Below, piece after piece: positions 19,163-41,085 of a stretch of DNA of 64,000 nt. The stretch's first letter is position 1. Every line of letters begins with the position of its first letter. The translations under genes were made by a program, and so were the position numbers. The notes under the pieces are model-generated. The model was not told where the DNA came from, did not search any database, and saw only the letters and a list, made by a program, of their open reading frames with translations. This DNA is from Chryseobacterium ginsenosidimutans (GTDB taxonomy: Bacteria; Bacteroidota; Bacteroidia; Flavobacteriales; Weeksellaceae): positions 3,641,001 to 3,705,000 of the forward strand of contig NZ_JAUSXC010000001.1 of the NCBI RefSeq assembly GCF_030823405.1, given 5' to 3'.

Positions 19163-19558
19163 ATTGATTTGTTTAAAATTTCATTAAATCAAAAACAGCA
19201 ACCATCTTGCCAGATTATTATCAACATCTGTAATCATAAAAAGTCTTTTAAATGAAGTAAATATCTCTCTAAATGCCCGTTATGACCTAGATCATATACA
19301 TCTATTTTATGAGATATCTATCTTTGATTTGTACCTTAAATATGAATACACCAAACTAATCCTATCCAATAAACAATTAAAAATATAATGTTATTGCTTC
19401 AGCAATTTACAGATCAATTCTTGCACAAAATAATATTCTGAGCACTAGCGGCAAGCTTTTCCAGATGTAAGATTTCATTCCATTTTATTGAATATTGATA
19501 TGATAAAGTTTATAAATGCAGCAACAGCATAATTTTCAACTTTAAAAAAACATTTCTG
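19163..19558. other. Intergenic region with Crp/Fnr-type promoter and long leader
   Basis: About 395 bp. It contains the Crp/Fnr-type site at 19281-19296 and the -7 box TATCTTTG at 19319-19326. Transcription would start near 19330, leaving a 5' leader of about 230 nt before the gene at 19559. The leader holds only a 5-codon ORF (ATG at 19342) and no clear hairpin. Confidence 0.55.
19281..19326 (+). promoter_or_regulatory. Crp/Fnr-type box and -7 box (site 1)
   Basis: TATGAC-CTAG-ATCATA at 19281-19296, then 22 bp, then TATCTTTG at 19319-19326. Class II spacing. Drives the NAD-dependent epimerase gene at 19559. Confidence 0.75.
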
Positions 19559-20578
19559 ATGATTTTAGTTACAGGAGCAACAGGGCTTTTAGGCAGGGTA
19601 ATTACCTTGGAACTCATAAAAAAAGGAAAGAAAGTGAGAGCCTGTAAAAGATCCGGCAGCGACTTATCCGATGTTAGAAAGTCTTATCATTTTTATACAC
19701 CAAAAGCCGACTTTTTCTTTGATCAAATTGAATGGGTAGATATAGATTTTAATAAACATCAATCCCTTTACGCATCATTAAAAGATGTGGAAGAGGTCTA
19801 TCATTGCGCCGCAAAAGTAAGTTTTGACCCCAAAGATAGCGAAGAGGTGCTTGAAACCGGGATTACAAGTACAAGAAACCTTTTGCGGGCATGTATGTAT
19901 ATGCCTGTAAAAAAATTCCTGTTTGTAAGCTCTGCTGCAGTTCTCAACGTAAATAAAAAAAAAATTGAATTACAGATTAATCAAAATTACAAAGCGTATT
20001 CTTCTTATGTAGTATCAAAATATATTTCGGAAAAAATGATTTGGCAGGCATATAAAGAAGGTCTGAATACCGTTATCATTAATCCTGGAATGATCATCGG
20101 AAGTGGAAACTGGAAAAAAGGAAACAGCCAGATGCTCAATATTTTTGTAACAAGCAGATTCACTTTTTCAGGCGGAACTTCCTGTGTTGATGTACGCGAT
20201 GTAGCCACTGTAGCTATAAATTTAATGGAAAAAAATATTTTTGGAGAGCGATTCTGCATTTCCTCGGAAAATATTCTCTATAAAGATCTCTCCACACGGA
20301 TAAGAAGAATGATGGGTTTAGAAAAACCTATTGTATGCCCTAAAATCTTACTCAAATCTTTAAAACCCTTGCGACTGATTTTGGGAATGATAGATCGTAA
20401 GGCGCGTTTTCTTATTGATGAGAATATAGAATTTGTTTCGGAAAGACAATATTATAACAGCAAAAAAATTAAAAACAGGATACATTGCAGCTTCTATTCT
20501 GCTGCAGAAAGTATTAAGTTCCATTATGGGAATTACCTGGCTTACAAATCCGGTAAAAAATTAAATGAAAATTTATAA
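19559..20578 (+). CDS. NAD-dependent epimerase/dehydratase (extended SDR)
   Basis: A 339-aa Rossmann-fold protein. Nucleotide-binding GATGLLG at residues 6-12, FVSSAAV strand with catalytic Ser, and YVVSK (YxxxK) near residue 150, then NPGMIIGSG. This is the extended short-chain dehydrogenase family close to dihydroflavonol-4-reductase-like proteins. The substrate is not predictable. Preceded by a Crp/Fnr-type promoter with a 230-nt leader (site 1). Confidence 0.85.
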   Translation: MILVTGATGLLGRVITLELIKKGKKVRACKRSGSDLSDVRKSYHFYTPKADFFFDQIEWVDIDFNKHQSLYASLKDVEEVYHCAAKVSFDPKDSEEVLETGITSTRNLLRACMYMPVKKFLFVSSAAVLNVNKKKIELQINQNYKAYSSYVVSKYISEKMIWQAYKEGLNTVIINPGMIIGSGNWKKGNSQMLNIFVTSRFTFSGGTSCVDVRDVATVAINLMEKNIFGERFCISSENILYKDLSTRIRRMMGLEKPIVCPKILLKSLKPLRLILGMIDRKARFLIDENIEFVSERQYYNSKKIKNRIHCSFYSAAESIKFHYGNYLAYKSGKKLNENL

Positions 20579-20620
20579 AAGATACCCATATTTCATTGTA
20601 TGCTGCATTCTTATAGCCAA

Positions 20621-20665
20621 CGTGACTAAAGTCATAATATGTAAAAGCTGATTTCAATATCTTTA
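20621..20665 (+). promoter_or_regulatory. Crp/Fnr-type box and -7 box (site 2)
   Basis: CGTGAC-TAAA-GTCATA at 20621-20636, 21 bp, then TATCTTTA at 20658-20665 (one base off TAnnTTTG). Start of transcription near 20669, 32 nt before the 127-aa gene that leads into the first Crp/Fnr paralogue. Confidence 0.65.
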
Positions 20666-20701
20666 TTTTTAAATCTTTAATCATCACCAAGCCAAATTAG
20701 T

Positions 20702-21085
20702 ATGAAAATCACTGAGCTAAAAATACAGAATCTCGTTAGATATAAAAAGCAGACCTATTCACTTACAGAGGTATTTCAGCATGAAAATGCAGAGTATTAT
20801 GTTAAAATATCAAATTCCAAAAGTTGTGTCTGTATCCCTGCAAAATTAATTAAGCCTGTAAGAATAAATGAATCATGGCTTTTAAAATTTGGCTTTACAA
20901 AAACGTATGATTCTGAGCACATCCTAAGGTTTGAGAGGCGGCAGGAATTTTTAAAATATGATATTGATCTTCATAATACCCATTTTCTGACTGGTCTGAA
21001 GCTTTATGGAAATAACGTAAACTGCGTATGTGTACATCAGTTCCAAAACCTTTTTTGTTTTTTATTCGGAAGGGAACCGATGTGA
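20702..21085 (+). CDS. Small protein resembling Bacteroidota phage/mobilome family
   Basis: A 127-aa protein. Its plan (LKIQNLVRYKKQTYSLTEV..., then PVRINESWLLKFGF, then a C-terminal VHQFQNLFCFLFGREP) matches small proteins common in Bacteroidota prophages and integrative elements, which typically read IGNLV...PI.LTEEWL.KFGF...HQLQNLYFALTGEEL. The function of that family is not known to me. Here it is not beside phage genes: it lies 36 bp upstream of, and probably in one transcript with, a Crp/Fnr regulator, and starts just after a Crp/Fnr-type promoter. It may be a domesticated regulatory partner. Confidence 0.65.
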   Translation: MKITELKIQNLVRYKKQTYSLTEVFQHENAEYYVKISNSKSCVCIPAKLIKPVRINESWLLKFGFTKTYDSEHILRFERRQEFLKYDIDLHNTHFLTGLKLYGNNVNCVCVHQFQNLFCFLFGREPM

Positions 21086-21121
21086 ATTTTATTTGAAAAA
21101 AACTTTTAAAAATATCAAATA

Positions 21122-21718
21122 ATGCTTGTTGATATTGATTTACTACTATCGTATGATGGACTTATTGAGACTTTCAATACGTCCGACATTATTTTTGAAG
21201 AAGGTGAAGTGCCAAAATTTTATTATCAGGTAATTACCGGCTCTGTGAAGCTTAACCATATAACCGAAGACAATAGAGAACTTATTCAAAGTATTTTAAA
21301 AGACGGGCAAAGTGTCTGTGAGCTTCTATCGTTTATTGACAAAACATTTCCGGTAAATGCAATAGCCATTTCGGACTGCACCATCATAAAAGTTCCTAAA
21401 GACAGATTCTTACAGCTTATGGACGACCATCGGCAGGCGGCAAAAGATGTCCAGCGGTTTGTTGCAGAACGGCTGTATCATAAATTTATCATGATGCAGA
21501 ATAATGCATCTAAATATTCTCATGTACGGATAGAGGGTATGCTTAAATATTTCAAAAGTTTCACCAATGATCAGAGCCCGTATTCTTACGAAGTTCCCCT
21601 CACAAGAAAGCAGTTGGCTTCAATAACCGGATTGCGCATAGAAACTGTCATAAGATCAGTAAAAAAAATGGAAAGTGAGAAAATTCTGCAAATTAAAAAC
21701 CGAAAGATTTATTTTTAA
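21122..21718 (+). CDS. Crp/Fnr-family regulator, paralogue 1
   Basis: A 198-aa protein: cyclic-nucleotide-binding-like beta-roll (about 20-115), dimer helix, and winged helix-turn-helix (about 150-198) with recognition helix LRIETVIRSVKKME. It lacks the N-terminal cysteines of the Fe-S protein FNR and the RS pair of cAMP-binding CRP (it has FPVNA there), so the effector is unknown. It differs from the other four in lacking the GA motif near residue 11. Downstream of the phage-like gene and site 2; ends before a bidirectional terminator. Confidence 0.92.
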   Translation: MLVDIDLLLSYDGLIETFNTSDIIFEEGEVPKFYYQVITGSVKLNHITEDNRELIQSILKDGQSVCELLSFIDKTFPVNAIAISDCTIIKVPKDRFLQLMDDHRQAAKDVQRFVAERLYHKFIMMQNNASKYSHVRIEGMLKYFKSFTNDQSPYSYEVPLTRKQLASITGLRIETVIRSVKKMESEKILQIKNRKIYF

Positions 21719-21787
21719 ATGATAATTGATTTCTAAAAACTCCGGGACAAGTATTCTTTTTTGAGTTACAATATAATTCCGGAAAAA

Positions 21788-21849: not shown

Positions 21850-22440
21850 TTAATCTTCCTGCTCAGCATCAAAATTAATTGATGTTTCGGCGATTTCTGT
21901 AAGATTATAGTCTGTATCTTCTTCTTCCTGTAAAATTTTTTCTAAGAGATCTGCAGCTTTGTCGTGCCCCATTGTGATGGCAAGCTGGGCCAGACCTCCG
22001 TAACTCGCAATTTCGTAATGTTCAACTTTTTGGGCTGCAATTATTAAGGCTGCATCTCTTGTCATGGTACCTTCTTCGGTAGATTTTATAATTTCTTCAC
22101 CTTCTTTGATCAACCCGTCCATTGCTTCGCATTTCTTCTGTTCCGGTGTTTCATCAATTAATTTAAAAACCTTATCCAAACGGCTGATATGCTTTTTGGT
22201 CTGAAGCTGGTGGTCTTCAAAAGCATCTTTCAACTCTTCTGTCGTTGCGGCATCGTGCATCGTTTGCAGTGCATCCACCAATTTGTGTTCAGCATAATAA
22301 ATGTCTTTTAATGCATCTACAAAAAATTTGTGTAAGGGTGCATCTTTCATTTCTTTTTCATTCACGTTTGCATTGTCTACCTGCATCTTTTTTTCAGCAG
22401 ATGACGATGTTGTATTATTTTCTGTTGTTTTAGTTGCCAT
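21850..22440 (-). CDS. DUF892 ferritin-like protein (YciE/YciF-like), copy 1
   Basis: A 196-aa protein. After a polar N-terminus of about 30 residues comes a four-helix ferritin-like domain: LHKFFVDALKDIYYAEHKLVDALQTM, ELKDAFEDHQLQTKKHISRLDKVF, and DAALIIAAQKVEHYEIASYGGLAQLA, with Glu and Glu-x-x-His residues placed as di-iron ligands. E. coli homologues YciE and YciF are stress-induced proteins encoded in the yciGFE operon. It lies directly after a YciG-like gene (22513-23283), separated by a terminator hairpin, and this arrangement is repeated at 34837-36235. Role: stress protection, mechanism unclear. Confidence 0.9.
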   Translation of the reverse strand: MATKTTENNTTSSSAEKKMQVDNANVNEKEMKDAPLHKFFVDALKDIYYAEHKLVDALQTMHDAATTEELKDAFEDHQLQTKKHISRLDKVFKLIDETPEQKKCEAMDGLIKEGEEIIKSTEEGTMTRDAALIIAAQKVEHYEIASYGGLAQLAITMGHDKAADLLEKILQEEEDTDYNLTEIAETSINFDAEQED

Positions 22441-22468
22441 AATATAATGTGTGGTGTTTGGTTAATAA

Positions 22469-22501
22469 AAATCACCTCTTCTCTTTCAAAAGAGGCGATT
22501 T
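22469..22501 (-). terminator. Hairpin/terminator between YciG-like and DUF892 genes, copy 1
   Basis: On the minus strand, AAATC-G-CCTCTT, loop, AAGAGG-T-GATTT then TTTATT. One internal mismatch. It lies 28 nt before the DUF892 start codon, so it probably lowers read-through into that gene. Confidence 0.7.
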
Positions 22502-22512
22502 AACTATAAAAA

Positions 22513-23283
22513 TTATGAATTACGTCTGCCTCCAAATCCGGATCTGCCGGAAGATCTGCCTCCTCCGTGAGAAGCTTCACCTCCCATTCTGGCAATTCTT
22601 GTACGTTCGGATTTACTCATGGATGCGAATCCTCTTTTTGATGTATCGCCACCAGAAGAACCGCCTCTGTTATTGCCTCCTGATCCGGAATTGGAACCAC
22701 GTCCTCTGCCAGAACCGCTGTTTCCGCCAGATCCTGATCCTGAACCTGATCTGCCTGAACCGGAAGATCTTCCGCCTCCGTGAGAAGCCTCACCTCCCAT
22801 TCTGGCAATTCTTGTACGTTCAGCTTTACTCATAGAAGCAAAACCTCTTCTTGAGGTATCTCCTGAAGATCTTCCTCTGCCTTGTCCTGAAGACGATCCG
22901 CGTCCGCCACCTCCGGATGATCCGCCACGGGAGTTTCCTGATCCACCGCGTCCTCCTGAAGTAAATCTTCCCTGGTTGTCACGTTGCTGATTACCGTTTC
23001 CTGAACCTCTTCTGCCACGGTTATCATCATCGCTGTCATAATCTTCATCATCCTCATCGTCGTAATCTTCATCATCATAGCCTTCATCAAGATCTTCGTC
23101 ATCATAGTAATCTTCTTCGAAGTAGTCTTCATAATCAGAGAAATCATCATCATAATCTCCGTCTTCGCTTGCATCACTGTAACCGTGATCGTAACCTAAC
23201 TGATAAGCTTCTTCAAGTATTGACTGATCGTTATCTGATGAATTTCTCCCTGAGTTTCTATTGTTTGAATTTCTAGTGTTCAT
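22513..23283 (-). CDS. YciG-like stress protein with acidic N-terminus and two KGG repeats, copy 1
   Basis: A 256-aa protein of low complexity. Residues about 20-90 are extremely acidic (runs of D, E and Y such as DYDDDFSDYEDYFEEDYYDDED), the middle is Gly/Ser/Arg-rich, and two copies of the stress-induced KGG motif (KRGFASMSKSERTRIARMGG followed by EASHGGG) occur near 160-185 and at the C-terminus. E. coli YciG and fungal Con-10 have the same motif. The ATG at 23283 is preferred to one further upstream because the paralogue at 35492 starts the same way (RNSNNRNSG). First gene of a cassette with DUF892. A 16-bp element shared with the paralogue lies 41 bp upstream. Confidence 0.85.
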   Translation of the reverse strand: MNTRNSNNRNSGRNSSDNDQSILEEAYQLGYDHGYSDASEDGDYDDDFSDYEDYFEEDYYDDEDLDEGYDDEDYDDEDDEDYDSDDDNRGRRGSGNGNQQRDNQGRFTSGGRGGSGNSRGGSSGGGGRGSSSGQGRGRSSGDTSRRGFASMSKAERTRIARMGGEASHGGGRSSGSGRSGSGSGSGGNSGSGRGRGSNSGSGGNNRGGSSGGDTSKRGFASMSKSERTRIARMGGEASHGGGRSSGRSGFGGRRNS

Positions 23284-23323
23284 AACTTGTCTTTTGAAAT
23301 TAATATTAAGTGATGTAAACATA

Positions 23324-23952: not shown

Positions 23953-23976
23953 ATAATTGATTTTAATTTGGTATTT

Positions 23977-24022
23977 CAAAGCTAAAAAAATGCTCTAAAG
24001 CTATTCTATGATTACGATCATA
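23977..24022 (-). promoter_or_regulatory. Crp/Fnr-type box and -7 box (site 3)
   Basis: Palindrome TATGAT-TACG-ATCATA at 24007-24022 (extended CTATGAT/ATCATAG), 22 bp, then minus-strand TAGCTTTG at 23977-23984. Start of transcription near 23973, 20 nt before the lipoprotein ATG. Confidence 0.8.
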
Positions 24023-25809: not shown

Positions 25810-26213
25810 TTTATATCTTCAATTAATATTAATCTAAATCTGTACAATATTTTTGCAGTAAACAAACTTAAAGTTGCTTTACCATATGCGTAAATTCAAA
25901 TATAGTAATGTTGAATTTTTCAATACATGACTCTAATCATAATGAGATTTTTTTACCAGATCAGGAATATTAATAACTATTATTATCACTATTAATCTGC
26001 ATATACCACATAAAATTATATATATTATAAATTAATTTACAATACATATATCTTATTAGTTTTATTTGGAAAATTATCTACCTTGAAATTAACGATAAGC
26101 AGATTATAGTTGATAAAAATTAAAATATTGCAACTACAGGAGTAACCATATTTAATTTTTATGATATTCTACAACATCAGTACTACCTATAGAAAGGCAT
26201 TGAAAGGGCGTGA
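25810..26213. other. Intergenic region with site 4
   Basis: About 400 bp. The leftward promoter of the 59-aa lipoprotein is at 25897-25941. The remainder (25945-26213) is AT-rich with no gene, and no terminator was recognised for the rightward-lying Crp/Fnr gene that ends at 26214. Confidence 0.5.
25897..25941 (-). promoter_or_regulatory. Crp/Fnr-type box and -7 box (site 4)
   Basis: CATGAC-TCTA-ATCATA at 25926-25941, 21 bp, then minus-strand TATATTTG at 25897-25904. Start near 25893. Leads to the 59-aa lipoprotein gene. Confidence 0.75.
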
Positions 26214-26810
26214 TTAATAAAATATTTTACCGTTCTTTATAATCAGAATTTCACTTCTCTCCATTCTCTTTATTGCTCTGATAGCAGTTTCTACAGAAAG
26301 CCCTGTAAGCGAAGCCAGCTGCTGCCTTGTATGTGGAATTTCGAACGAAAATTTATCTTTATTTTCTTTTGAATCTTTCATTTGATTCATAAGCTCCATA
26401 AGACGCTCTTCAGCATTTTCGCTTGTGATCTTTCGCATTAACACAATTTTTTCAGAGGTCTTTTCAGACATTGTTTTATACATATCCAGAAAAATCTCAG
26501 GATGCTCCTGCAGCAATTGGAAGAACTGATCTCTCCCGACCTTAAGAATGGTACATTTGGTAAGTGCAACCGCATTTACCGGATATGGTTTCCCAAGAAT
26601 GAGCATCGATTCGCCGAAACATGAATTGTCAGAAAGAATGTTTTGGATAAATTCTTTGCCATCTTCCTTATAACTGTTCAGTTTCACTTCTCCGGTAACT
26701 ATTTGATAATAAAACTGCGGAGTAGCCTCTTCACGAAATATATAATCGCCAGCGTTATAATGCTCTTCAATTGCTTCTACCGAATGCAAAAGTCTTTCTT
26801 GGATAGACAT
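26214..26810 (-). CDS. Crp/Fnr-family regulator, paralogue 2
   Basis: A 198-aa protein with beta-roll effector domain (GEVKLNSYKEDGKEFIQNIL, GESMLILGKPYPVNAVAL) and winged helix with recognition helix LSVETAIRAIKRME, where Ser replaces the Arg found in paralogues 1, 3 and 4. No FNR cysteines, no cAMP-contact RS. Its promoter appears to be site 5, which would give a 267-nt leader containing a 19-codon ORF (26999-27058). It is divergent from paralogue 3. Confidence 0.92.
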   Translation of the reverse strand: MSIQERLLHSVEAIEEHYNAGDYIFREEATPQFYYQIVTGEVKLNSYKEDGKEFIQNILSDNSCFGESMLILGKPYPVNAVALTKCTILKVGRDQFFQLLQEHPEIFLDMYKTMSEKTSEKIVLMRKITSENAEERLMELMNQMKDSKENKDKFSFEIPHTRQQLASLTGLSVETAIRAIKRMERSEILIIKNGKIFY

Positions 26811-27080: not shown

Positions 27081-27125
27081 CAAAGGTAGCCTATCAGCAA
27101 GGTATTAAATATGACATAGGTCATA
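27081..27125 (-). promoter_or_regulatory. Crp/Fnr-type box and -7 box (site 5)
   Basis: Near-perfect palindrome TATGAC-ATAG-GTCATA at 27110-27125 (AATATGAC...GTCATATT), 21 bp, then minus-strand TACCTTTG at 27081-27088. Leads leftward to Crp/Fnr paralogue 2. Confidence 0.8.
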
Positions 27126-27348: not shown

Positions 27349-27393
27349 TTTGACCTAAATCATATTCCGAAAATTATTAAATTAATATATTTG
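27349..27393 (+). promoter_or_regulatory. Crp/Fnr-type box and -7 box (site 6)
   Basis: TTTGAC-CTAA-ATCATA at 27349-27364, 21 bp, then TATATTTG at 27386-27393. Start near 27398, 43 nt before Crp/Fnr paralogue 3. Confidence 0.78.
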
Positions 27394-27440: not shown

Positions 27441-28037
27441 ATGGTCATAAAAGAAGACTTGCTCATTATTTTTGGAGCAGAAATCATTCAATTAAAAAAA
27501 TCCGAATTACTCTTTGAAGAAAATAATTCACCTGAATATTATTTTCAAATCAAAACGGGTAGAATAAAGCTTACAAATTTTCAGACCGAAAATAGAGAGT
27601 TTATCCAGAGTATTCATAAGGATGGTGAATCTGTTGGCGAAATATTCTTATTTTCCAAATACAAATATCCTGTTAATGCTGTTTTGATGGAAGATTGCAC
27701 TATATTCAAATTAGAAAGTCCTAAGCTGTTAAAATTATTGAAGTCTAATTTTGAAATTCAGATGAAATTTCTGGATTATATAGCCGAAAGAACCTATTAC
27801 AGCTATATTTTTTTAAACAGCTTAACCTCAGAAGATGCAACGCATCAATTACTTACTTTGCTTAATCATCTGAAAAACAGCCAAAATAAATCTGAACGTT
27901 ATTCCTATAAAATCCCTTACACAAGAAAAGAGCTTGCTTTTTTAACAGGATTAAGAACCGAAACTGTCATAAGGACTTTTAAGAAAATGGAAAGCGAAAA
28001 TCTAATTAAAATAATTAAAGGAAGAGTGTATTATTAA
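27441..28037 (+). CDS. Crp/Fnr-family regulator, paralogue 3
   Basis: A 198-aa protein. N-terminal beta-roll (GRIKLTNFQTENREFIQSI, GEIFLFSKYKYPVNAVLMEDC) and C-terminal winged helix with recognition helix LRTETVIRTFKKME. Conserved Glu and Arg (E-T-x-x-R) could read the TGA core as in the FNR/CRP family. No Fe-S cysteines. Own promoter at site 6 and a terminator-like hairpin at 28050-28086. Of the five it is most like paralogue 1 by recognition helix. Confidence 0.92.
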   Translation: MVIKEDLLIIFGAEIIQLKKSELLFEENNSPEYYFQIKTGRIKLTNFQTENREFIQSIHKDGESVGEIFLFSKYKYPVNAVLMEDCTIFKLESPKLLKLLKSNFEIQMKFLDYIAERTYYSYIFLNSLTSEDATHQLLTLLNHLKNSQNKSERYSYKIPYTRKELAFLTGLRTETVIRTFKKMESENLIKIIKGRVYY

Positions 28038-28124: not shown

Positions 28125-28721
28125 TCAGTACAAAATTTTTCTGTTTATAATTTTAAGAGCCTTTTCTTTTTCCAGTTTTTTTATAGCCCTTATTGCCGTT
28201 TCTACTCGCAGACCTGTAAGACAGGCCAATTGCTGCCTCGTTAAAGGAACCTGAAAAGAAAACATACATTGTTTTTGCTGGAAACTTTTTAAATAATCCA
28301 TAATCCCCTTTAGTCTTTCTTCCGGAGATTCCAGAGAATTCTTTTGAAGCATAATGTATTTGTAGTAAAGCTGATTTGACAGGCCTTTGCAAAAATCAAA
28401 ATACAGGTGAGGAGATTTTTCGAGCATATTCAAAAAATCCGCCTTATCTAATCTTAGAATGGTACAGTCTGAAATGGCAACGGCATTCATTGGATATGGC
28501 TTATCACCGAAAAGCAATAACTCGCCAAAACTTTGGCCTTTGGATAATATATTTTGGATAAATTCTTTCCCGTCCTTATTGTTATTGTTCAACTTGACCT
28601 CTCCCTGCACGATCTGATAATAATATCCTGAGATTTCTCCTTCATAAAAAATAGTTTCGTCGGTTTTATATTGTTTTAACTTTGCACCTGCAGAGTGTAA
28701 AAATTCTTCTTTAATAACCAT
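28125..28721 (-). CDS. Crp/Fnr-family regulator, paralogue 4
   Basis: A 198-aa protein with the shared frame: AGAKLKQYKTDETIFYEGE, GEVKLNNNNKDGKEFIQNIL, GELLLFGDKPYPMNAVAISDC, and recognition helix LRVETAIRAIKKLE. Cysteines C115-region (FDFCKGL) and CLTGL are not arranged like an Fe-S site. It follows paralogue 5 on the same strand with a 214-bp gap in which no promoter or terminator was recognised, so co-transcription from site 7 is likely. Confidence 0.92.
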   Translation of the reverse strand: MVIKEEFLHSAGAKLKQYKTDETIFYEGEISGYYYQIVQGEVKLNNNNKDGKEFIQNILSKGQSFGELLLFGDKPYPMNAVAISDCTILRLDKADFLNMLEKSPHLYFDFCKGLSNQLYYKYIMLQKNSLESPEERLKGIMDYLKSFQQKQCMFSFQVPLTRQQLACLTGLRVETAIRAIKKLEKEKALKIINRKILY

Positions 28722-28935: not shown

Positions 28936-29532
28936 TTAAAAATAGATCTTCCGATCTTTAATCTTAACGATCTTTTTCTTTTCCATATTTTTAATGGTTC
29001 TGATTGCTGTTTCAACGCATAAGCCTGTGAGAGCCGCAATTTGCTGCCTTGTAAATGGTACTTTAAAAGAAAATGGAGTATGATCTTTTTTTGAATCCTT
29101 CATATAATCTATGACTCCAATTATTCTTTCAGCAGGATTCTGCGACGAGTTTGCCTGCAACATTATATACTGATAGTAAAGAAAATCTGACAATCCCTGA
29201 CATAGATTAAAATACAGATGAGGATATACATTCAGCATACTGAAAAAATTGGTCCTGTACAGTCTTATAACCGTACATTGCTCTAAAGCTACAGCATCAA
29301 CAGGATAAGGTTTGTCGATAAAAAGCAGCGACTCACCCAGACTTTCTCCTTCTGAGATTATTTTTTGGATAAGCTCTTTACCTTCCTTATTATAATTATT
29401 GAGCTTTACTTTTCCTTTCGTTAATTGATAATAATAAAGAGGAGAAGCACCATCCTGAAAGATAACATCTCCGGTATTATATTCTTTTACTTCAGCACCT
29501 GCTGAGAATAAAAACTTTTCATTGATAATCAT
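28936..29532 (-). CDS. Crp/Fnr-family regulator, paralogue 5
   Basis: A 198-aa protein: AGAEVKEYNTGDVIFQDGA, GKVKLNNYNKEGKELIQKII, GESLLFIDKPYPVDAVAL, and recognition helix LCVETAIRTIKNME, where Cys takes the Arg/Ser position. Closest to paralogue 4. A perfect inverted repeat GATTATG-ATTA-CATAATC (29560-29577) lies 28 bp upstream of the ATG and may be an operator of a related type. Site 7 lies about 490 bp upstream. Confidence 0.92.
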   Translation of the reverse strand: MIINEKFLFSAGAEVKEYNTGDVIFQDGASPLYYYQLTKGKVKLNNYNKEGKELIQKIISEGESLGESLLFIDKPYPVDAVALEQCTVIRLYRTNFFSMLNVYPHLYFNLCQGLSDFLYYQYIMLQANSSQNPAERIIGVIDYMKDSKKDHTPFSFKVPFTRQQIAALTGLCVETAIRTIKNMEKKKIVKIKDRKIYF

Positions 29533-29966: not shown

Positions 29967-29991
29967 AATATCAATTTTGTGGTGTGTAGTA

Positions 29992-30037
29992 CAAATTTAT
30001 AAAAATCAACCTTTTAGTTTTTATGACCTCTGTCATA
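29992..30037 (-). promoter_or_regulatory. Crp/Fnr-type box and -7 box (site 7)
   Basis: Perfect palindrome TTATGAC-CTCT-GTCATAA with core 30022-30037, 22 bp, then minus-strand TAAATTTG at 29992-29999. Start near 29988. Leads leftward to the micro-ORF and Crp/Fnr paralogues 5 and 4. Confidence 0.8.
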
Positions 30038-30873: not shown

Positions 30874-31030
30874 TACACACCACCTAAGAGCTATTATGTG
30901 AACTTAGGATTAATATTAGGTTATAAATATATAAAATAAAAATAAAAAAGTTCAATAATGGATTATTAATTTAAAAAAATTCTGTAATAATACCACATGA
31001 AAAAAGTTTTAGAAATTTACAACAAAAAAA

Positions 31031-31052
31031 GGCTTTCCAAAATAGGAAAGCC
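31031..31052 (-). terminator. Intrinsic terminator of the leftward micro-transcript
   Basis: Stem GGCTTTCC / GGAAAGCC with a 6-nt loop, followed on the minus strand by seven T (31024-31030). No conventional gene ends here, so it marks the end of the short leftward transcript from the bidirectional site. Confidence 0.75.
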
Positions 31053-31078
31053 CGAAAATATAGGGGTCTAAAAAAGTG

Positions 31079-31156
31079 TTAAGCGAGATATTGATTCCGT
31101 TTTCTGCCTACGTATTGTAGATGTATTAGAATTATCTGAAAATGATGCTCTTTCAT
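31079..31156 (-). CDS. Candidate 25-aa micro-protein
   Basis: The ATG lies 26 nt after the predicted leftward transcription start (about 31182) of the bidirectional Crp/Fnr-type promoter, and the stop lies just before the terminator at 31031-31052. The peptide starts MKEHHFQIILIHLQYVG and ends basic (RKRNQYLA). The transcript (about 155 nt) could instead be a non-coding RNA. Confidence 0.35.
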   Translation of the reverse strand: MKEHHFQIILIHLQYVGRKRNQYLA

Positions 31157-31186
31157 ACAATATGTTAAGTATTGTATTGATACTGC

Positions 31187-31260
31187 CAAAAATATATACA
31201 TATTTGCAGTCAATATATGAGTAGAATCATAAACAGTATTTTTTACGGACATTACATTTG
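31187..31260. promoter_or_regulatory. Bidirectional Crp/Fnr-type site with two -7 boxes (site 8)
   Basis: TATGAG-TAGA-ATCATA at 31216-31231. On the right, 21 bp away, TACATTTG at 31253-31260. On the left, also 21 bp away, minus-strand TATTTTTG at 31187-31194. Both match the class II spacing, so one palindrome can serve two divergent starts (near 31182 and 31265). Confidence 0.75.
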
Positions 31261-31312: not shown

Positions 31313-31357
31313 TATGATAAGCATCATAAAACTATAAAACGTTCCTTTTTATCTTTG
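31313..31357 (+). promoter_or_regulatory. Crp/Fnr-type box and -7 box (site 9)
   Basis: TATGAT-AAGC-ATCATA at 31313-31328, 21 bp, then TATCTTTG at 31350-31357. Start near 31362. The first thing downstream is a terminator, only about 35 nt later. Confidence 0.8.
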
Positions 31358-31361
31358 AAAA

Positions 31362-31425
31362 ATATCCTTTATCAATTTTGCACTTTATTCTCAGTAGCTC
31401 CTCTTTTCTTGAGGAGCTTTTTTTT
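31362..31425 (+). ncRNA. Candidate small RNA of about 64 nt
   Basis: Bounded by the start predicted for site 9 and the intrinsic terminator at 31396-31425. It contains no ATG and thus no ordinary ORF. A longer form of about 160 nt could start at the rightward promoter of site 8 (about 31265). The unpaired 5' part is AU-rich, as in base-pairing regulatory RNAs. No known family recognised. Confidence 0.45.
31396..31425 (+). terminator. Strong intrinsic terminator between two Crp/Fnr-type promoters
   Basis: Perfect stem AGCTCCTC / GAGGAGCT with a 7-nt loop, then seven T. It ends before site 10 and the lipoprotein gene at 31501, so it closes a transcript that has no conventional gene. Confidence 0.85.
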
Positions 31426-31433: not shown

Positions 31434-31478
31434 TGTGATTCCCATCATAAAATTTTCATTTTTCGATTATTAAGTTTG
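31434..31478 (+). promoter_or_regulatory. Crp/Fnr-type box and -7 box (site 10)
   Basis: TGTGAT-TCCC-ATCATA at 31434-31449, 21 bp, then TAAGTTTG at 31471-31478. Start near 31483, 18 nt before the lipoprotein ATG at 31501. Confidence 0.8.
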
Positions 31479-31500: not shown

Positions 31501-31698
31501 ATGAAATTAGCACTATCTGTATTTTTATTATACATTTTATCAGCATGTACAAAATCTGAAACCCAATACATTAATCAGGACAATAAAAAAGAAACGGTAA
31601 ACAACAAGGCTTCTGATACGATACAGACGCTGAATGAAATATCAGATACCATGAAGCTGGGAAAAGACAGTGCCAATGTAAAAACCGATAACGAATAA
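31501..31698 (+). CDS. Small lipoprotein heading the cyanophycinase operon
   Basis: A 65-aa protein with a lipoprotein signal (LSVFLLYILSAC; Cys at about 16) and a polar Lys/Asp/Asn/Thr-rich remainder without motif. It ends 6 nt before the pseudo-cyanophycinase and shares its promoter (site 10). One of four small lipoproteins placed right after Crp/Fnr-type sites in this island. Confidence 0.75.
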   Translation: MKLALSVFLLYILSACTKSETQYINQDNKKETVNNKASDTIQTLNEISDTMKLGKDSANVKTDNE

Positions 31699-31704: not shown

Positions 31705-32529
31705 ATGACTCCAAAAGGCAGAATCATTATCATTCGTAGTACCGATACAGATACTACCGATGAAGCAGAACACCGATCGGCATCACATCATTTTCCATCT
31801 AAAATTTTCGCGCTGTTATCAGAAGAAAAAAATGCCCGTATTGAAATAATAACAACATCAAAAGATTCAACAGAGAATTGTAGAAAGCCATATGCTGAAC
31901 TATTAGAAAAAGATGGTTACAGTAATATCGGTTTTATTGATATTGGAAAGCAGGATCCTGATGATTACTATTCAAGGATATCCGAGGCTAAAGTTGTTAT
32001 GTTTGATGATAATGAGCAGCAGATCTGTGAAAGATTGAAAAACTCGGCAATACTTAAGCTTTTAAACAAAAAATATCTCCACGAAGATAATTTTACCGTC
32101 GTCGGAATCAATACGGGAGCAATGTGTCTCTCAGTGTTAAATGACACAGGAACAATCAATCCAGGTCTCGGGTTTATCAACAATTGTATCATTGATACAA
32201 AATTTATGCATGGAGAAAGATGTAAAAATCTGGTAAAAGCAACTATTTACCATAATGAATGTTTAGGACTCGGACTAAAGAACGGCATGGCATTAATCAT
32301 TGAGAAAGGCTACAAAGCAATATGTTTAGGTAACAGTTCTGTGATGGTAGTGAATGCCAAAGATGTTAAAAACAAACGCTTAACAAGAGGATCTTCCGTC
32401 TATAAGAAAAACCTGAAAGGCCACATTCTCACCGAAGGATCTGTTCTTAATTTATTAAACGGAGATCTGATAAAAACCCATTTGTTTGGCCACAGCTTAA
32501 ACTTTATAAACAGAAATACAATTCAATAA
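31705..32529 (+). CDS. Cyanophycinase-like pseudoenzyme
   Basis: A 274-aa protein clearly homologous to the next gene over its whole length (MTPKGRIIII start, GLGFINNCIIDT, HILTEGSVLNLL). However, the S51-peptidase nucleophile motif GTSAG is changed to G134-I-N-T-G (Ser to Asn136), the substrate-loop FTGGDQ is FDDNEQ, and the conserved His in DTHF is Lys166 (DTKF). It should therefore be catalytically dead yet the frame is intact. It may regulate or form a heteromer with its active neighbour, which starts 22 nt downstream. Confidence 0.82.
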   Translation: MTPKGRIIIIRSTDTDTTDEAEHRSASHHFPSKIFALLSEEKNARIEIITTSKDSTENCRKPYAELLEKDGYSNIGFIDIGKQDPDDYYSRISEAKVVMFDDNEQQICERLKNSAILKLLNKKYLHEDNFTVVGINTGAMCLSVLNDTGTINPGLGFINNCIIDTKFMHGERCKNLVKATIYHNECLGLGLKNGMALIIEKGYKAICLGNSSVMVVNAKDVKNKRLTRGSSVYKKNLKGHILTEGSVLNLLNGDLIKTHLFGHSLNFINRNTIQ

Positions 32530-32551
32530 TTTTTAATTAAATATTTAAAAT

Positions 32552-33400
32552 ATGACACCCAAAGGACAATTATTAATTATAGGCGGTAAAGAAGACAAGG
32601 ACGGAAATACTCCTGACATGCAGGAAAATAATAATAATTTTTCGCCCAATGAAATTCTTAAACTTTTAGTAAAATCTAAAGACGACCGTATTGAGGTTAT
32701 CACTGTAGCAACTTCTGATCCCGAAAGTATGCGGGAAACCTACACAAAAACATTTGAAGAGATCGGATACACAAATTTCGATTTTCTGGATATCCGCGAT
32801 GATCAGATTCATACAGATTATCATCTCAAAAGAGTCCAGGCTGCTAAAACCGTTTTTTTTACAGGAGGAGATCAGAGCAAGATCTACGAAACCTTACAGC
32901 AATCTGTCTTAACGCAACTTTTAAAAGAAAAATATCAGAATGAGGAAGGTTTTATGATTGCAGGAACCAGTGCAGGAGCCATGTGCATACCGAAAATTGT
33001 GATTCTAGAAGCCGATAACGGGGAAGCTATGCTGGAACATGATATTGAGCTGAGTTCCGGGCTGGGCTTTATCGAAAACTGTATTATTGATACACATTTT
33101 GTACACCGGGCGAGATTCGGAAGACTGGCACATGCTGTCATCTTGAATCAGGAATGTTGGGGAATAGGATTAGGGGAAGATACTGCCCTCCTGATAGAAG
33201 AAGGAAGCAAAGCAATCTGCCGCGGATCGGGAATGGTATGGCTTCTTAATGCAAAGGAAATCGGTAAGACCAACACTAGAAATGTAAAAAAAGGTTCTCC
33301 CATTTATGCAGAAAATCTTAAAGTTCATATTTTAACAGATGGTTGTGAAATTAATTTCAATAACAATACATTTGAAGAACCTGATTCGGGAGAAGAATAA
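32552..33400 (+). CDS. cphB: Cyanophycinase (S51 serine peptidase)
   Basis: A 282-aa protein. Catalytic Ser140 in GTSAGA, FTGGDQ loop (103-108), and D180-T-H182-F with following R-x-R-F-G-R-L, all standard for cyanophycinase, which cuts the arginine-aspartate polymer cyanophycin into beta-Asp-Arg dipeptides. No cyanophycin synthetase is present in the window, so the true substrate could be another isoaspartyl peptide. Third gene of the operon lipoprotein-pseudoenzyme-cyanophycinase from site 10. Terminator at 33406-33433. Confidence 0.85.
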   Translation: MTPKGQLLIIGGKEDKDGNTPDMQENNNNFSPNEILKLLVKSKDDRIEVITVATSDPESMRETYTKTFEEIGYTNFDFLDIRDDQIHTDYHLKRVQAAKTVFFTGGDQSKIYETLQQSVLTQLLKEKYQNEEGFMIAGTSAGAMCIPKIVILEADNGEAMLEHDIELSSGLGFIENCIIDTHFVHRARFGRLAHAVILNQECWGIGLGEDTALLIEEGSKAICRGSGMVWLLNAKEIGKTNTRNVKKGSPIYAENLKVHILTDGCEINFNNNTFEEPDSGEE

Positions 33401-33460: not shown

Positions 33461-33506
33461 TATGAGACAGCTCATAAAGTAATGAGCCTCTTAGGCTGTA
33501 CTTTTA
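33461..33506 (+). promoter_or_regulatory. Crp/Fnr-type box and -7-like box (site 11)
   Basis: Perfect palindrome TATGAG-ACAG-CTCATA at 33461-33476, 22 bp, then TACTTTTA at 33499-33506 (last base differs from TAnnTTTG). Start near 33511, 18 nt before the SdhB-like gene. Confidence 0.65.
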
Positions 33507-35412: not shown

Positions 35413-35439
35413 GATTGTAAACTTTTAAATTAAAAAAAC

Positions 35440-35473: not shown

Positions 35474-35491
35474 TAAAATATCAATTATGAA

Positions 35492-36356: not shown

Positions 36357-36402
36357 CTAATTTATAAACTATGTTACCTTTCAGATTATGACCGGAATCA
36401 CA
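36357..36402 (-). promoter_or_regulatory. Crp/Fnr-type box and weak -7 box (site 12)
   Basis: TATGAC-CGGA-ATCACA at 36387-36402, 22 bp, then minus-strand TAAATTAG at 36357-36364 (one base off TAnnTTTG). Start near 36353, a leader of about 118 nt before the YciG-like gene. Confidence 0.5.
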
Positions 36403-37126: not shown

Positions 37127-38125
37127 TTATTTAATTTTATCCATGATAACTTTTATTTCTTTTACACTCACTTTCTGGGCATTGTTTCCCCAGCTCGTTC
37201 TTTCATGATTTATAATTGCCGTAACATCTTCCGGGGTAAAATTCGCATTGGTTCCTACGGGAGGCATCGTTGCAAATTCCGGTCTCGGATCGTAGCCTTT
37301 CATAATGATCGTTACATATAGCTCCAGATCTCCACCTCCGACAACAGGACTACCCTTCAATGGCGGAAATGCTCCCGGAACACCTTCTCCGTTTGCCTGA
37401 TGACAAGACGCACAATTGGCCGTGAATAATTCTCCACCATCCGGAAGGTTTTCTCCTCCTTCACCTCCACCACCTTCTTCTTTTTTCTTTTGTTTGTAAA
37501 GAAATGCCGGAACAATTGATTTATCTGTATAATCTGTTTGTTTCAAAGATTTTAGATAAGCGACCAACTGAAGAACTTTTGGGGTAGCAACAATTTTTTT
37601 CCTTTTATTTTTTAAAAACTTTTCAGGGACTTTCACTTCAACATCACCGGGCTGCAGATAATCTCTTTCTATGAAAAGAAACTCATACGAAGGCATGATA
37701 GAAGCTTCAACAGCTGCTCTGGGCTGAAACAGGTGAATAAGATGCCATTCTGCACTTGGCTGTCTTTCTCCCACATTGGTAAGATCGGGGCCGGCTCGCT
37801 GTGTTCCCATCAGATTGGCCGTATTTCTCCAGAAATCTGTTCTTCTGTTAATAGCAAAATCGGCAGGGATACTTGGTCTTTTCCCAAAAACATTATCCAT
37901 TTCTACGCTTCTTACCTGTTGGGTATGGCAGGCAACGCATCCATTTTCGATATAAACCATTTTTCCTGCTTTCTCATCTTTAGTTAAAACTTTTGACTGA
38001 CGAGGCAGAGGCTGATTGATTTTCTGATTTTCCATGGCAGGAATAATCGCAATGTAAAATGTAAGAAATACAAAGAGGCCAAGTGCCGATCCGAAAAGTA
38101 TCCTATGATCATTTAATAGCATCAT
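37127..38125 (-). CDS. Membrane-anchored diheme cytochrome c, fused CcoO-like and CcoP-like subunit
   Basis: A 332-aa protein. An N-terminal helix (about 8-30) anchors it. C63-V-A-C-H67 is the first heme site in a CcoO/FixO-like domain (CVACHTQQVRSVEMDNVFGKRPSIPADF, then PGD and axial-Met candidate in IMPSYEF). A Glu/Gly-rich linker leads to a second, CcoP-like cytochrome domain with CASCH near residue 240 and a distal MPP. Canonical cbb3 oxidases use separate CcoO (one heme) and CcoP (two hemes), so this single diheme subunit is a reduced version. It starts 11 nt after CcoN. Confidence 0.85.
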   Translation of the reverse strand: MMLLNDHRILFGSALGLFVFLTFYIAIIPAMENQKINQPLPRQSKVLTKDEKAGKMVYIENGCVACHTQQVRSVEMDNVFGKRPSIPADFAINRRTDFWRNTANLMGTQRAGPDLTNVGERQPSAEWHLIHLFQPRAAVEASIMPSYEFLFIERDYLQPGDVEVKVPEKFLKNKRKKIVATPKVLQLVAYLKSLKQTDYTDKSIVPAFLYKQKKKEEGGGGEGGENLPDGGELFTANCASCHQANGEGVPGAFPPLKGSPVVGGGDLELYVTIIMKGYDPRPEFATMPPVGTNANFTPEDVTAIINHERTSWGNNAQKVSVKEIKVIMDKIK

Positions 38126-38136
38126 AATCTTAAATT

Positions 38137-39888
38137 TTATGAGTTAAACTCGGTATTTCCAAACTGCCTTTTGGCAGCTAATATTTCTGCTGGTGTTCTG
38201 GGAATTATTACGTCTTCTTTTGTTCTTACCATTCGATAAAAATTATACGCAAAGATGAGATGGGAAATCCACATGAATGTTCCGCCGATTGCTCTCCAGA
38301 GCCAGAAAGGAAACATATTGATAACACCGTCTATAAAAGGTTTTTTCTTCATCCACATCAGCCCTGTCTGTGTACCTCCGATCATTAAGGCAATGACATA
38401 CATTAATAAACCTATTAAAGCAAGCCAGAAATGTATTCCGACTAATATTTTTGGCGGTTCTTTTCCCGTAAGTCTGGGAATTAGTGTGTAAGAAAATGCC
38501 CATATCATAAATGTGATAATACCATACATCGTTAAGTGTGAATGCGAAACGGTAAAATCTGTAAAGTGCCAAAGCAGGTTGGTATATCTGAAAGCTTCTA
38601 CCGTTCCCTGGAATGATCCGGTAAAATAAAATATAATTGCCATAAAATAAAAAGGAAGAGTATAGCTTGTTTTCAGCTGATACCAAGCCCCGTTGAAGGT
38701 CAAAAGAAAGTTGGTTGTTCCCGCTGCCACAGGAATCAGCATTCCCACACTTGCAATAATGGCAGTGGTCTGTAACCTCCACGGAATAGCACTGAAAATA
38801 AAATGATGGGTTCCTATTAAGGTATAGAACAAAACATGTGTCCAGAATGCCAAAGCCCCCAAACTGTAAGAGTAAATTGGCTTATTAAGCTGCTGAGGAA
38901 GAAAATAATACATAAGCCCAAGATTGATCATCATAAACCACATACCAATTGCCTGATGCATATAATATCCCTGTGTAATGGTTTCCCCGACACCATTTTG
39001 CCATACAGGGATATATCCTACCAAAATAACAATGACAATGAACATAAATCCTGAAATAATATACCAATTTGAGATATAGATTTCTTTAACGATCCTATTG
39101 GCAACAGGTTTAAACAGATTAAACGTAGAAATGGCTACTCCGATACCGAAAGTGATCATAATCGGCCAGATATATTCGCGGTATTCTCCGCCGCCGTTGT
39201 TGACTCCTGCTAACAGTGATATGGTTCCTGCCAATACTGCGGCATTAATGAGAATAAGAGAAATATAACCGCTTTTAATGTTGTAGTTTTCAACATTGCT
39301 CACTCTGGTTACCACATAATGCGACAGACCGACCATTGCCAGCGAAGCCCATCCCCAAAATACCGCATTGGTATGTGCCGGGCGCAGTCTTCCGAAACTG
39401 AGCCAGCTTGTATGTTCCACATCAGGAACTACATATTTTATCCCCGCATAAAGTCCGAATGTCGTTCCGATAATCAGCCATGCTATTGCGGTTCCTAAAA
39501 ACCATAGAATAAGCTTGGTAAGTTCCGGAGATACATAATTGAGAAAAGAAGAGGTTCTTCTTTTAGTAGGGAAAAACCTGAAGTTTTCAACAGAATTGAT
39601 ATTTCTGATCATTCCTTTCTCATCAGACGGAGAAAAGCTTCCTGAAAGCTGGTTTTGAGTCTGCTCGTAGTTCAGTTCCTGTTCTCTTTTTTCGTATTCC
39701 TGAAGTTCTTCAGGGCTGAGCTTCTGGATTTTTTTTTGGATTTCTAAGTATTCCCTGCGCCTTAAAATATTAGAATATACTGATAAGAATTTGAGAACTA
39801 CGATAATCAAACCGGCGATAATGATGATCAGCATTAAAGCCAATGTAATTTGTATACCGGTCTGATTAAATAATGACGATTCTGCCAT
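38137..39888 (-). CDS. ccoN: cbb3-type (C-family) heme-copper oxidase subunit I, noncanonical
   Basis: A 583-aa protein with an unusual N-terminal extension: a helix (13-40) and a charged stretch (EIQKKIQKLSPEELQEYEKRE) before the core. Core ligands: H172 (RPAHTN) for low-spin heme, H311 (YYMHQA) and H361-H362 (IGTHHF) for CuB, H449 and H451 (VSHSHLTMYG) for the hemes. Y355, six residues before H361, matches the cross-linked Tyr of cbb3 oxidases and argues against a nitric-oxide reductase, which lacks it. It probably reduces oxygen to water with low-oxygen affinity typical of the family. The usual ccoS, ccoG, ccoH and ccoI genes are not present here. Confidence 0.88.
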   Translation of the reverse strand: MAESSLFNQTGIQITLALMLIIIIAGLIIVVLKFLSVYSNILRRREYLEIQKKIQKLSPEELQEYEKREQELNYEQTQNQLSGSFSPSDEKGMIRNINSVENFRFFPTKRRTSSFLNYVSPELTKLILWFLGTAIAWLIIGTTFGLYAGIKYVVPDVEHTSWLSFGRLRPAHTNAVFWGWASLAMVGLSHYVVTRVSNVENYNIKSGYISLILINAAVLAGTISLLAGVNNGGGEYREYIWPIMITFGIGVAISTFNLFKPVANRIVKEIYISNWYIISGFMFIVIVILVGYIPVWQNGVGETITQGYYMHQAIGMWFMMINLGLMYYFLPQQLNKPIYSYSLGALAFWTHVLFYTLIGTHHFIFSAIPWRLQTTAIIASVGMLIPVAAGTTNFLLTFNGAWYQLKTSYTLPFYFMAIIFYFTGSFQGTVEAFRYTNLLWHFTDFTVSHSHLTMYGIITFMIWAFSYTLIPRLTGKEPPKILVGIHFWLALIGLLMYVIALMIGGTQTGLMWMKKKPFIDGVINMFPFWLWRAIGGTFMWISHLIFAYNFYRMVRTKEDVIIPRTPAEILAAKRQFGNTEFNS

Positions 39889-40026: not shown

Positions 40027-40242
40027 TTATTTGCTGTTTTTGATAGAGTCTACATCGTACGATGCGCTGTCCATTGGCAATGTATTGTCTCCGGTATCCG
40101 GTGTTACTCCAGCCGTTCCCGAAACGATGCTGTCTCCTGTGTTTACATTATCAATATTGGTTTGCTGTGGTTGTGGCTGCTGCTTGGTACATCCTATAAT
40201 AAGGCTGCCTGCAAATAATGCCAATAAAAAGAATAATTTCAT
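40027..40242 (-). CDS. Small lipoprotein upstream of the oxidase genes
   Basis: A 71-aa protein. The ATG at 40242 gives a lipoprotein signal (FFLLALFAGSLIIGC, lipobox IIGC), then a Gln/Pro stretch and an Asp/Thr/Ser-rich tail. An in-frame ATG at 40290 lies upstream of the predicted transcription start and is rejected. It is separated by 138 bp from ccoN with no terminator or new promoter recognised, so it may lead the oxidase operon. Controlled by site 13. Confidence 0.72.
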   Translation of the reverse strand: MKLFFLLALFAGSLIIGCTKQQPQPQQTNIDNVNTGDSIVSGTAGVTPDTGDNTLPMDSASYDVDSIKNSK

Positions 40243-40272
40243 AATAATAATAATTTTGTGTAGTGTGTAAGC

Positions 40273-40317
40273 CAAAGGTAGAGAGATCAAATAAAAAACT
40301 TTATGACTGGTATCATA
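40273..40317 (-). promoter_or_regulatory. Crp/Fnr-type box and -7 box (site 13)
   Basis: TATGAC-TGGT-ATCATA at 40302-40317, 21 bp, then minus-strand TACCTTTG at 40273-40280. Start near 40268, 26 nt before the lipoprotein ATG. Confidence 0.8.
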
Positions 40318-40351
40318 TTGAATATATTTTTTTCGGTATTTCTAAATTAAA

Positions 40352-40374
40352 AGGCTCCTCAAGATGAGGAGCCT
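40352..40374 (-). terminator. Terminator of the 201-aa gene
   Basis: AGGCTCCTC / GAGGAGCCT, a 9-bp stem with a 5-nt loop, followed by TTTT on the minus strand. It separates the 201-aa gene from site 13. Confidence 0.8.
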
Positions 40375-40411
40375 GCAAGAAAAAGTGAGTGAATTGAAAT
40401 GTATATCTAAT

Positions 40412-41017
40412 TTATTCGAAGTTAAGAAGTCCGTCTGCTAAAAGTTTCCATTGCATTTTTCCGAAACCGAACATTCCTCCTAAAGAAATAAAGAAATTTC
40501 TTATTTTATCTATAAATCCGGTATTGAAGTTCGGTCTTTCATTACGTCCGTAAATTCCGACCTTTAAAGAATCTCCCTCTCTCACGATCATAATGTTGGA
40601 AGTTGCCGCCGAACTGTAGAAGTGCGCAATATATCCTTTCAGTCTATTGGGTACTTTAGAAGGTCTGCACATCATCAGAAAAGATTCGCTGTTATCAGTA
40701 TCTCTGTGCGAAATATTTACAATTTCTACCCAATCATACCCTTCGGCTTCTTTTGTGCCCGGTCCCGGAATACCGATTCTGATGAAGTCTCCTTTTTTAG
40801 GAATTCTTTCAACCCATTGTCCCGAACTGTCAAAATGCTTAAAATCTGCAGAAGCACTTCCACAATAATCTTTCCATTTATTAATGGTAAAAAAACGTTC
40901 TTTCAGGATATTGAATTTTGTATTTATTACTAAAGCATTATACTGTTTTGTACTTTCCGTATCATGAAATCCTCCCTTTTTGTGTATGGGAACTCCCGGA
41001 ATCTGTTTAGGTTTCAT
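40412..41017 (-). CDS. Conserved hypothetical protein (201 aa)
   Basis: A soluble protein without signal peptide or membrane segment. Recognisable segments are W-V-E-R-I-P-K-K-G-D-F-I-R-I-G-I-P-G-P, a DWVEIVNI strand, and SFLMMCRPSKVP followed by a FYSSAATS segment. I do not recognise a family. Single-gene unit: Crp/Fnr-type site 14 directly upstream (start about 20 nt before the ATG) and a terminator downstream. The tight regulatory packaging says it belongs to the same regulon as the oxidase-linked lipoprotein. Confidence 0.7.
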   Translation of the reverse strand: MKPKQIPGVPIHKKGGFHDTESTKQYNALVINTKFNILKERFFTINKWKDYCGSASADFKHFDSSGQWVERIPKKGDFIRIGIPGPGTKEAEGYDWVEIVNISHRDTDNSESFLMMCRPSKVPNRLKGYIAHFYSSAATSNIMIVREGDSLKVGIYGRNERPNFNTGFIDKIRNFFISLGGMFGFGKMQWKLLADGLLNFE

Positions 41018-41040
41018 AAAATCATTTTGTGGTGCTTGAA

Positions 41041-41085
41041 CAAAATTAACATAAGTGCTCTTAAACGATTATGAGCGGAATCATA
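41041..41085 (-). promoter_or_regulatory. Crp/Fnr-type box and -7 box (site 14)
   Basis: TATGAG-CGGA-ATCATA at 41070-41085, 21 bp, then minus-strand TAATTTTG at 41041-41048. Start near 41037, 20 nt before the 201-aa gene. Confidence 0.78.

Follow-up and report, generated by a model that had tools for sequence, protein, structure and literature searches.

In Escherichia coli the short RNA FnrS is part of an anaerobic response of the Crp/Fnr type. The DNR box is TTGAT-N4-ATCAA, and HcpR has the motifs TGTGAN6TCACA, TTGACN4GTCAA and GTAACN4GTTAC (PMC1274295, in the portion consulted). Levels of the short RNA SnoA of Bacteroides thetaiotaomicron are reportedly independent of HcpR (PMC13370916, in part). 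The sequence TAnnTTTG is given as the sigma-A -7 box in PMC9723704, a partly consulted source whose main text displays no word starting with "crp" or "fnr". Regulatory codes of Bacteroidota are poorly known. The window analyzed here is a 64,000-nucleotide (nt) stretch of Chryseobacterium ginsenosidimutans, i.e. C1:3641001-3705000 of the 4.30-Mb genome, with a G+C content of 34%. At 19-41 kb it displays a cluster of palindromes, TATGAN6TCATA, each with a TAnnTTTG-like box at a fixed distance. No description of the TATGAN6TCATA box or of the small RNA candidate found with it was detected in listings from an open-access library, in which most subscription papers are absent.

The cluster probably represents a regulon of class II activator promoters that is read by a subfamily of Crp/Fnr proteins, the most likely signal being low oxygen, nitric oxide (NO) or both.

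Palindrome and -7 box at a fixed distance

The exact palindrome occurs nine times in the window and every copy is at 19-41 kb, whereas 100 shuffles of the window give a mean of 0.19 and a maximum of one. A sequence-only reading had listed 14 sites, all at 19-41 kb. For exact palindromes in the window the confinement is confirmed, and nine of the 14 are exact; the other five are imperfect, with one mismatch at 25926, 27349, 31434 and 36387 and two at 20621, which reads CGTGAC at its start. At 11 of the 14 sites an exact TAnnTTTG begins at a distance of 21 or 22 nt, as that reading had it. Allowing at most one deviation over site and box together gives 13 oriented promoters, spread over 12 sites, compared to a total of one across 40 simulated sequences of 64 kb with matching dinucleotide composition. 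The 36387 promoter has two deviations summed over site and box. The 20621 promoter is also outside of the list, with two deviations in the site and, by the count of the sequence-only reading, one in the box; the homologous promoter in Chryseobacterium oleae (locus L031), which precedes the same 127 amino acid (aa) gene, has both parts exact. The palindrome at 31216 is flanked by exact boxes on both sides and is thus a divergent promoter. Spacers of the window promoters display 31.3% identity, against 31.1% when shuffled, thus these promoters are not copies of one another.

The palindrome alone is found 29 times in the genome and seven times in the reversed control. A looser form of the pair (ATGAN6TCAT, 22 or 23 nt, TAnnTTTG) is found 14 times, with controls of 0 (forward) and 1 (reverse), and 10 of the 14 are within this 22-kb cluster. 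The genome scan proposed with the sequence-only reading therefore places the pair above chance, and the scan of relatives that was proposed with it gives a similar picture. This was done with 79 loci around related Crp/Fnr genes (from the best 80 of 160 candidates; the named relatives are 77 Chryseobacterium and 2 Epilithonimonas, with the genome's own records possibly left out), and with 148 genomes of the genus and 296 of the order, using reversed patterns as controls. The 79 loci have 164 exact palindromes counting both strands, and 10 in the reversed control. TAnnTTTG is present 66 times at 0-52 nt past an exact palindrome, 59 of these at 21 or 22 nt, and the reversed control has none. When one mismatch is allowed the 21/22 peak rises to 103, while the control shows 12 boxes, 8 of them at 35. 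The strict pair is present in 129 of the 148 genus genomes and 90 of the 296 order genomes; the reversed pattern is in 2 and 5 genomes, respectively (read from tables).

The conserved half-site is TATGAY. A class II site is centered at about -41.5 and overlaps the -35/-33 region, and the fixed gap of 21 or 22 nt fits this prediction; the value of -41.5 assumes the usual distance from box to start, the starts being predicted. TTG at -33 is rarer at site promoters, 4 of 114, than at site-less intergenic boxes, 106 of 712, counts whose independence is incomplete because they include orthologous promoters. In place of the depleted -33 TTG, the site is followed by A-rich positions. Together, the fixed gap, the depletion and the A-rich positions are what would be expected if an activator took the place of the -33 contact.

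The features of the cluster are as follows (window coordinates; starts are predicted; ORF, open reading frame).

19281..19326, + strand: exact palindrome 19281-19296 with box 19319-19326; next gene NAD-dependent epimerase-like, 19559-20578
20621..20665, + strand: degenerate site 20621-20636 with box one base off, before 127-aa gene 20702 and Crp/Fnr gene 21122
21122..21718, + strand: Crp/Fnr gene 1, 198 aa (PF00027, PF13545)
23977..24022, - strand: exact palindrome 24007-24022 with box 23977-23984; the ORF 20 nt past start is lipoprotein-like, of 145 aa, with KGG and DUF892 genes after it
23515-23979, - strand: small lipoprotein-like ORF behind the 24007 promoter
25897..25941, - strand: one-mismatch site with exact box; next gene of at least 80 aa DCC1-like, 25088-25501
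26214..26810, - strand: Crp/Fnr gene 2, 198 aa (PF00027, PF13545)
27081..27125, - strand: exact palindrome 27110-27125 with box; Crp/Fnr gene 26214-26810 begins 266 nt past start
27349..27393, + strand: one-mismatch site with exact box; Crp/Fnr gene 27441 begins 43 nt past start
27441..28037, + strand: Crp/Fnr gene 3, 198 aa (PF00027, PF13545)
28125..28721, - strand: Crp/Fnr gene 4, 198 aa (PF00027, PF13545), without a site of its own
28936..29532, - strand: Crp/Fnr gene 5, 198 aa (PF00027, PF13545)
29992..30037, - strand: exact palindrome 30022-30037 with box; 32-aa ORF at 21 nt, Crp/Fnr gene 5 at 455 nt
31030..31182, - strand: candidate short transcript, from the minus box of 31216 to a terminator at 31053-31030
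31187..31260, both directions: divergent promoter, exact palindrome 31216-31231 with boxes 31187-31194 (-) and 31253-31260 (+)
31313..31357, + strand: exact palindrome 31313-31328 with box 31350-31357; promoter of the small-RNA candidate
31360..31425, + strand: small-RNA candidate of ~65 nt, terminator 31396-31418
31434..31478, + strand: one-mismatch site (TGTGA) with exact box; 65-aa lipoprotein-like ORF at 18 nt
31501..31698, + strand: small lipoprotein-like ORF, 65 aa, behind the 31434 promoter
31705..33400, + strand: two cyanophycinase-like genes, the second above and the first below the equivalog cut-off
33461..33506, + strand: exact palindrome with box one base off; SdhB/FrdB-like gene 33529-34296 begins 18 nt past start
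36357..36402, - strand: one-mismatch site with box one base off; KGG gene 35492-36235, then DUF892 gene 34837-35412
37127..39888, - strand: divergent cbb3-like oxidase, CcoN-like 38137-39888 and CcoO-like/cytochrome c fusion 37127-38125
40027..40242, - strand: small lipoprotein-like ORF, 71 aa, 26 nt past start
40273..40317, - strand: exact palindrome 40302-40317 with box, before the 71-aa ORF and CcoN-like gene
41041..41085, - strand: exact palindrome 41070-41085 with box; 201-aa gene 40412-41017 begins 19 nt past start

The KGG and DUF892 gene pair occurs twice in the window, at 21850-23322 and 34837-36235. The 32-aa ORF at 29890-29970 (-) occupies the place of the 60-79-aa lipoprotein-like ORF that relatives have before the gene 5 homologue, and it looks like a remnant of such an ORF. 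Outside of the cluster, a cation/proton antiporter-like protein at 16675-17852 (-) appears, by eye, to be divided between two ORFs that overlap in different frames.

Crp/Fnr proteins and the genes behind the box

The genome has eight close Crp/Fnr paralogues, five of them in the window, three more distant members and five that are weaker still. All five window proteins match PF00027 and PF13545 above the gathering score, as members of the Crp/Fnr superfamily do, and the closest solved chains are CRP and DNR. The two window proteins scanned do not reach the NCBIfam equivalogs; the best scores are 53.3 (cut-off 300) for FixK, 50.5 (266) for CRP and 31.9 (228) for Fnr, and gene 1 has 53, 51 and 30 bits. 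Among 74 Crp/Fnr proteins, collected by a helix pattern requiring ET-x-x-R, the first 30 residues contain no cysteine in 52 and one in 22. The close Crp/Fnr proteins are thus without the N-terminal cysteine cluster of FNR. The description of this system as FNR-like, made in the sequence-only reading, is therefore appropriate to the site and its class II geometry, in view of the recurring gap, the reversed controls, the -33 depletion and the low-oxygen/NO targets, but it does not extend to the FNR oxygen sensor. Ser212 is a base-reading residue of FNR. At its position 72 of the 74 proteins have I and 2 have V, a change that would fit the A found in place of T in the half-site.

Four of the five window genes are behind a site: 21122 (via gene 20702), 26214, 27441 and 28936. 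The C. oleae counterpart of the 27110 promoter has its Crp/Fnr gene likewise 266 nt past the predicted start. The sequence-only reading had placed all five genes downstream of a site, which fails for 28125-28721, where the 214 nt upstream contain no such site; this gene would need read-through from 30022 via 28936.

The pair is present in 59 of 65 genomes that have a close homologue of these proteins (E up to 1e-40) but in 31 of 231 without one; for family f3 the values are 22 of 22 and 14 of 27 (tallied by hand from tables, with Fisher tests). In four f3 genomes of one genus (L121-L124) a Crp/Fnr orthologue is followed directly by the pair, a small membrane-type protein and a truncated-haemoglobin-like ORF; the L124 box is one base off. 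That ORF has no Pfam or NCBIfam match, and the L122 protein, the only one of the four tested, matches the group III truncated haemoglobin 2ig3 (E 2e-9). In L191, L193 and L198 a Crp/Fnr gene borders the divergent region that contains the palindrome.

Ten loci outside of the genus (L189-L198) were picked from the order list. Families matched first or next behind the pair are U32 peptidase, CcoNO, RIC and copper nitrite reductase (NirK; 352.8 bits, cut-off 296.3). By eye there are truncated-haemoglobin-like ORFs in L192 and L198, ferredoxin and 2-oxoacid:ferredoxin oxidoreductase in L195, and a Crp/Fnr gene in L191 and L193. No hcp gene is among the annotated targets. The first ORF of at least 80 aa behind 123 pairs in relatives is Crp/Fnr in 38, KGG in 25, DUF892 in 5, cyanophycinase in 4, CcoN in 3, SdhB in 3 and another window homologue in 4; 27 have no window match and 14 no ORF of that length. 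The number 38 is biased, as loci were fetched around such genes; overlapping loci were kept for all of these counts.

Elsewhere in the genome, the pair at 2.10 Mb (G000:C1:2098676) has a cyanophycin synthetase 328 nt on (982 bits, cut-off 850). That at 2.93 Mb (G000:C1:2931213) precedes PhaE and PhaC, the polyhydroxyalkanoate (PHA) synthase, and adjoins a site whose box is one base off, before a cyanophycinase. The pair at 2.92 Mb precedes a 603-aa protein, taken from its sequence for an outer-membrane receptor, and the pair at 2.06 Mb is followed by the other copy of the small-RNA candidate, with a CocE-like hydrolase next. One genome thus has cyanophycin synthetase, cyanophycinases (window 31705-33400 included) and PhaEC all behind the box.

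A small lipoprotein-like ORF recurs ~20 nt past the predicted start; the genes that it precedes are of the CcoN, Crp/Fnr and cyanophycinase types. In relatives it has 56-79 aa, often with MK...LSCKKE (L031, L043-L045, L051-L058 and others). The two short ones in the window, 31501-31698 and 40027-40242, have no NCBIfam match.

The window oxidase is the lowest-scoring of three haem-copper oxidases in the genome (251 bits versus 376 and 369), and its CcoN-like protein is below the ccoN equivalog cut-off (242 of 583 bits), i.e. related but divergent. A more canonical oxidase (369 bits) is at G000:C1:851772-856635, ~3 kb from a distant Crp/Fnr gene and with no listed pair.

We propose that a Crp/Fnr subfamily without the FNR cysteine cluster would bind TATGAY-N4-RTCATA as a dimer centered near -41.5. 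The bound regulator would adjoin a TAnnTTTG -7 box that has no -33 partner and would recruit the main RNA polymerase. The signal is most likely low oxygen and/or NO, to which the target genes in related families point. In Chryseobacterium the regulators appear to have multiplied (five here, eight in the genome), and with the box before several of their own genes auto- or cross-regulation would follow. Targets that may have acquired the box as well are an extra cbb3-like oxidase and an SdhB-like protein, small lipoproteins, stress genes of the KGG and DUF892 types, the metabolism of cyanophycin and PHA, and a ~65-nt RNA.

Several observations weigh against this proposal. The co-occurrence statistics ignore kinship, and the 31 genomes that carry the pair without a close homologue imply that another regulator is able to use the box. 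Stress or storage, and not respiration, is the function of many of the targets within the genus (KGG, DUF892, cyanophycinase). First behind the pair are an outer-membrane-type protein in L194 and a DoxX-like protein, then formate-tetrahydrofolate ligase, in L196, with no evident link to low oxygen or NO. The genome's two more canonical haem-copper oxidases do not adjoin any listed pair.

The box might be read mainly by another Crp/Fnr protein, e.g. 3547792, 856090 or 3532227, with the eight paralogues only targets or responding to other signals. The protein at 3547792 has an FNR-type helix ending in ETVSR, and the pair without a close homologue, within family f3 as well, would be explained. 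We consider this unlikely, since nearly all genomes with a close homologue carry the pair, and it is directly after or beside an orthologue in seven loci of other genomes. Repression or dual action from the site, where the spacing reflects steric exclusion of polymerase, is a good deal less probable still; a Crp/Fnr site adjoining the -33 region could also block polymerase, but exclusion does not require a gap limited to 21-22 nt, and the -33 TTG is depleted as if an activator were needed. Chance in an AT-rich region, or duplication of one promoter, has a negligible probability and is rejected by the shuffles and simulations, the reversed patterns (near zero in 148 and 296 genomes) and the spacer comparison, despite the low G+C content and the duplication of some gene modules, KGG plus DUF892 within the window and MarR plus the RNA within the genome.

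A small-RNA candidate behind the 31313 promoter

The terminator at 31396-31418 is behind the 31313 promoter and ahead of the first ORF of 30 aa, which is 139 nt on. The ~65-nt sequence that it ends is a conserved RNA candidate, predicted to be transcribed from the box promoter. The second copy is at G000:C1:2061402-2061460 (-), in a region 82% alike, and adjoins a paralogue of the window MarR gene (35% identity, 176 positions).

RNAalifold gave no consensus pair on the RNA alignment, thus the model, built from 16 sequences without the promoter, is sequence-only; the hairpin comes from single-sequence folds of 5 of the 16. With E limited to 1e-5 the model has matches in 33 of 148 genomes, the E-values being rough. 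A pair with at most one deviation ends at the RNA 5' end in 13 of 17 held-out genomes (30 loci fetched), and by construction in 13 of 13 training genomes. Among the exceptions, G121 combines an exact palindrome and a poor box, and G037 has one change in each part; no pair was found at the RNA 5' end in G085 and G051. The G121 and G051 loci end at a contig edge, which disturbs the position check. A BLAST search with promoter plus RNA lists 35 of 148 genomes, the majority with E above 0.001, and is not counted as support. Rfam has no match above gathering score in the window.

The box as a general driver of terminator-ended RNAs was considered and rejected; a terminator is present behind 5 of the 112 promoters with a site, and behind 14 of the 381 intergenic boxes without one. 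Terminators are thus not enriched, and the argument for the RNA is the conservation of this RNA itself. At least two further putative families of short terminator-ended RNAs are directly behind the pair in other Chryseobacterium genomes, at L145, L147, L160, L166, L174 and L208 and at L127, L161, L164, L167 and L187, loci partly chosen with a poly-T pattern. The candidate transcript at 31030-31182 (-) is similar, in part and at its end, in L031 and L036.

Somewhat short of an even chance, in our estimate, is the broader proposition that Flavobacteriales have an FNR/DNR-type code of their own, and that the Chryseobacterium network switches on at least one dedicated small RNA, as a counterpart of FnrS, and cyanophycin/PHA metabolism at low oxygen or NO. 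A motif pair with a near-zero reversed background would make low-oxygen/NO regulons predictable from sequence across Flavobacteriales. A single box with eight paralogous regulators is a natural test of the division of work among Crp/Fnr duplicates, and the ~65-nt RNA is a box-controlled candidate open to immediate testing.

Comparison with described regulons

The FNR, FixK and DNR regulons share with this one an inverted repeat with a 4-bp center, a predicted class II position, microaerobic and NO genes, and regulator genes under their own box. They differ from it in the half-site, which is TATGAY here, A replacing the first T of TTGAT in the FNR box TTGAT-N4-ATCAA, and in the -7 box, here the Bacteroidota TAnnTTTG. 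The present proteins differ in lacking the N-terminal cysteine cluster, in scoring far below the FixK, CRP and Fnr cut-offs and in having eight close paralogues. HcpR of Bacteroides, Porphyromonas and Desulfovibrio is also a Crp/Fnr regulator of NO-related genes and occurs in Bacteroidota, but its motifs in the portion of PMC1274295 consulted are unlike TATGAY-N4-RTCATA. DNR and HcpR are haem NO sensors; for the present proteins the target genes point to NO as a possible signal. FnrS and, from the partial source noted above, SnoA resemble the RNA candidate as short RNAs tied to a Crp/Fnr-type anaerobic or NO response; the candidate is distinguished by its lack of an Rfam match in the window, its length of ~65 nt, its one terminator hairpin and its location directly behind the palindrome.

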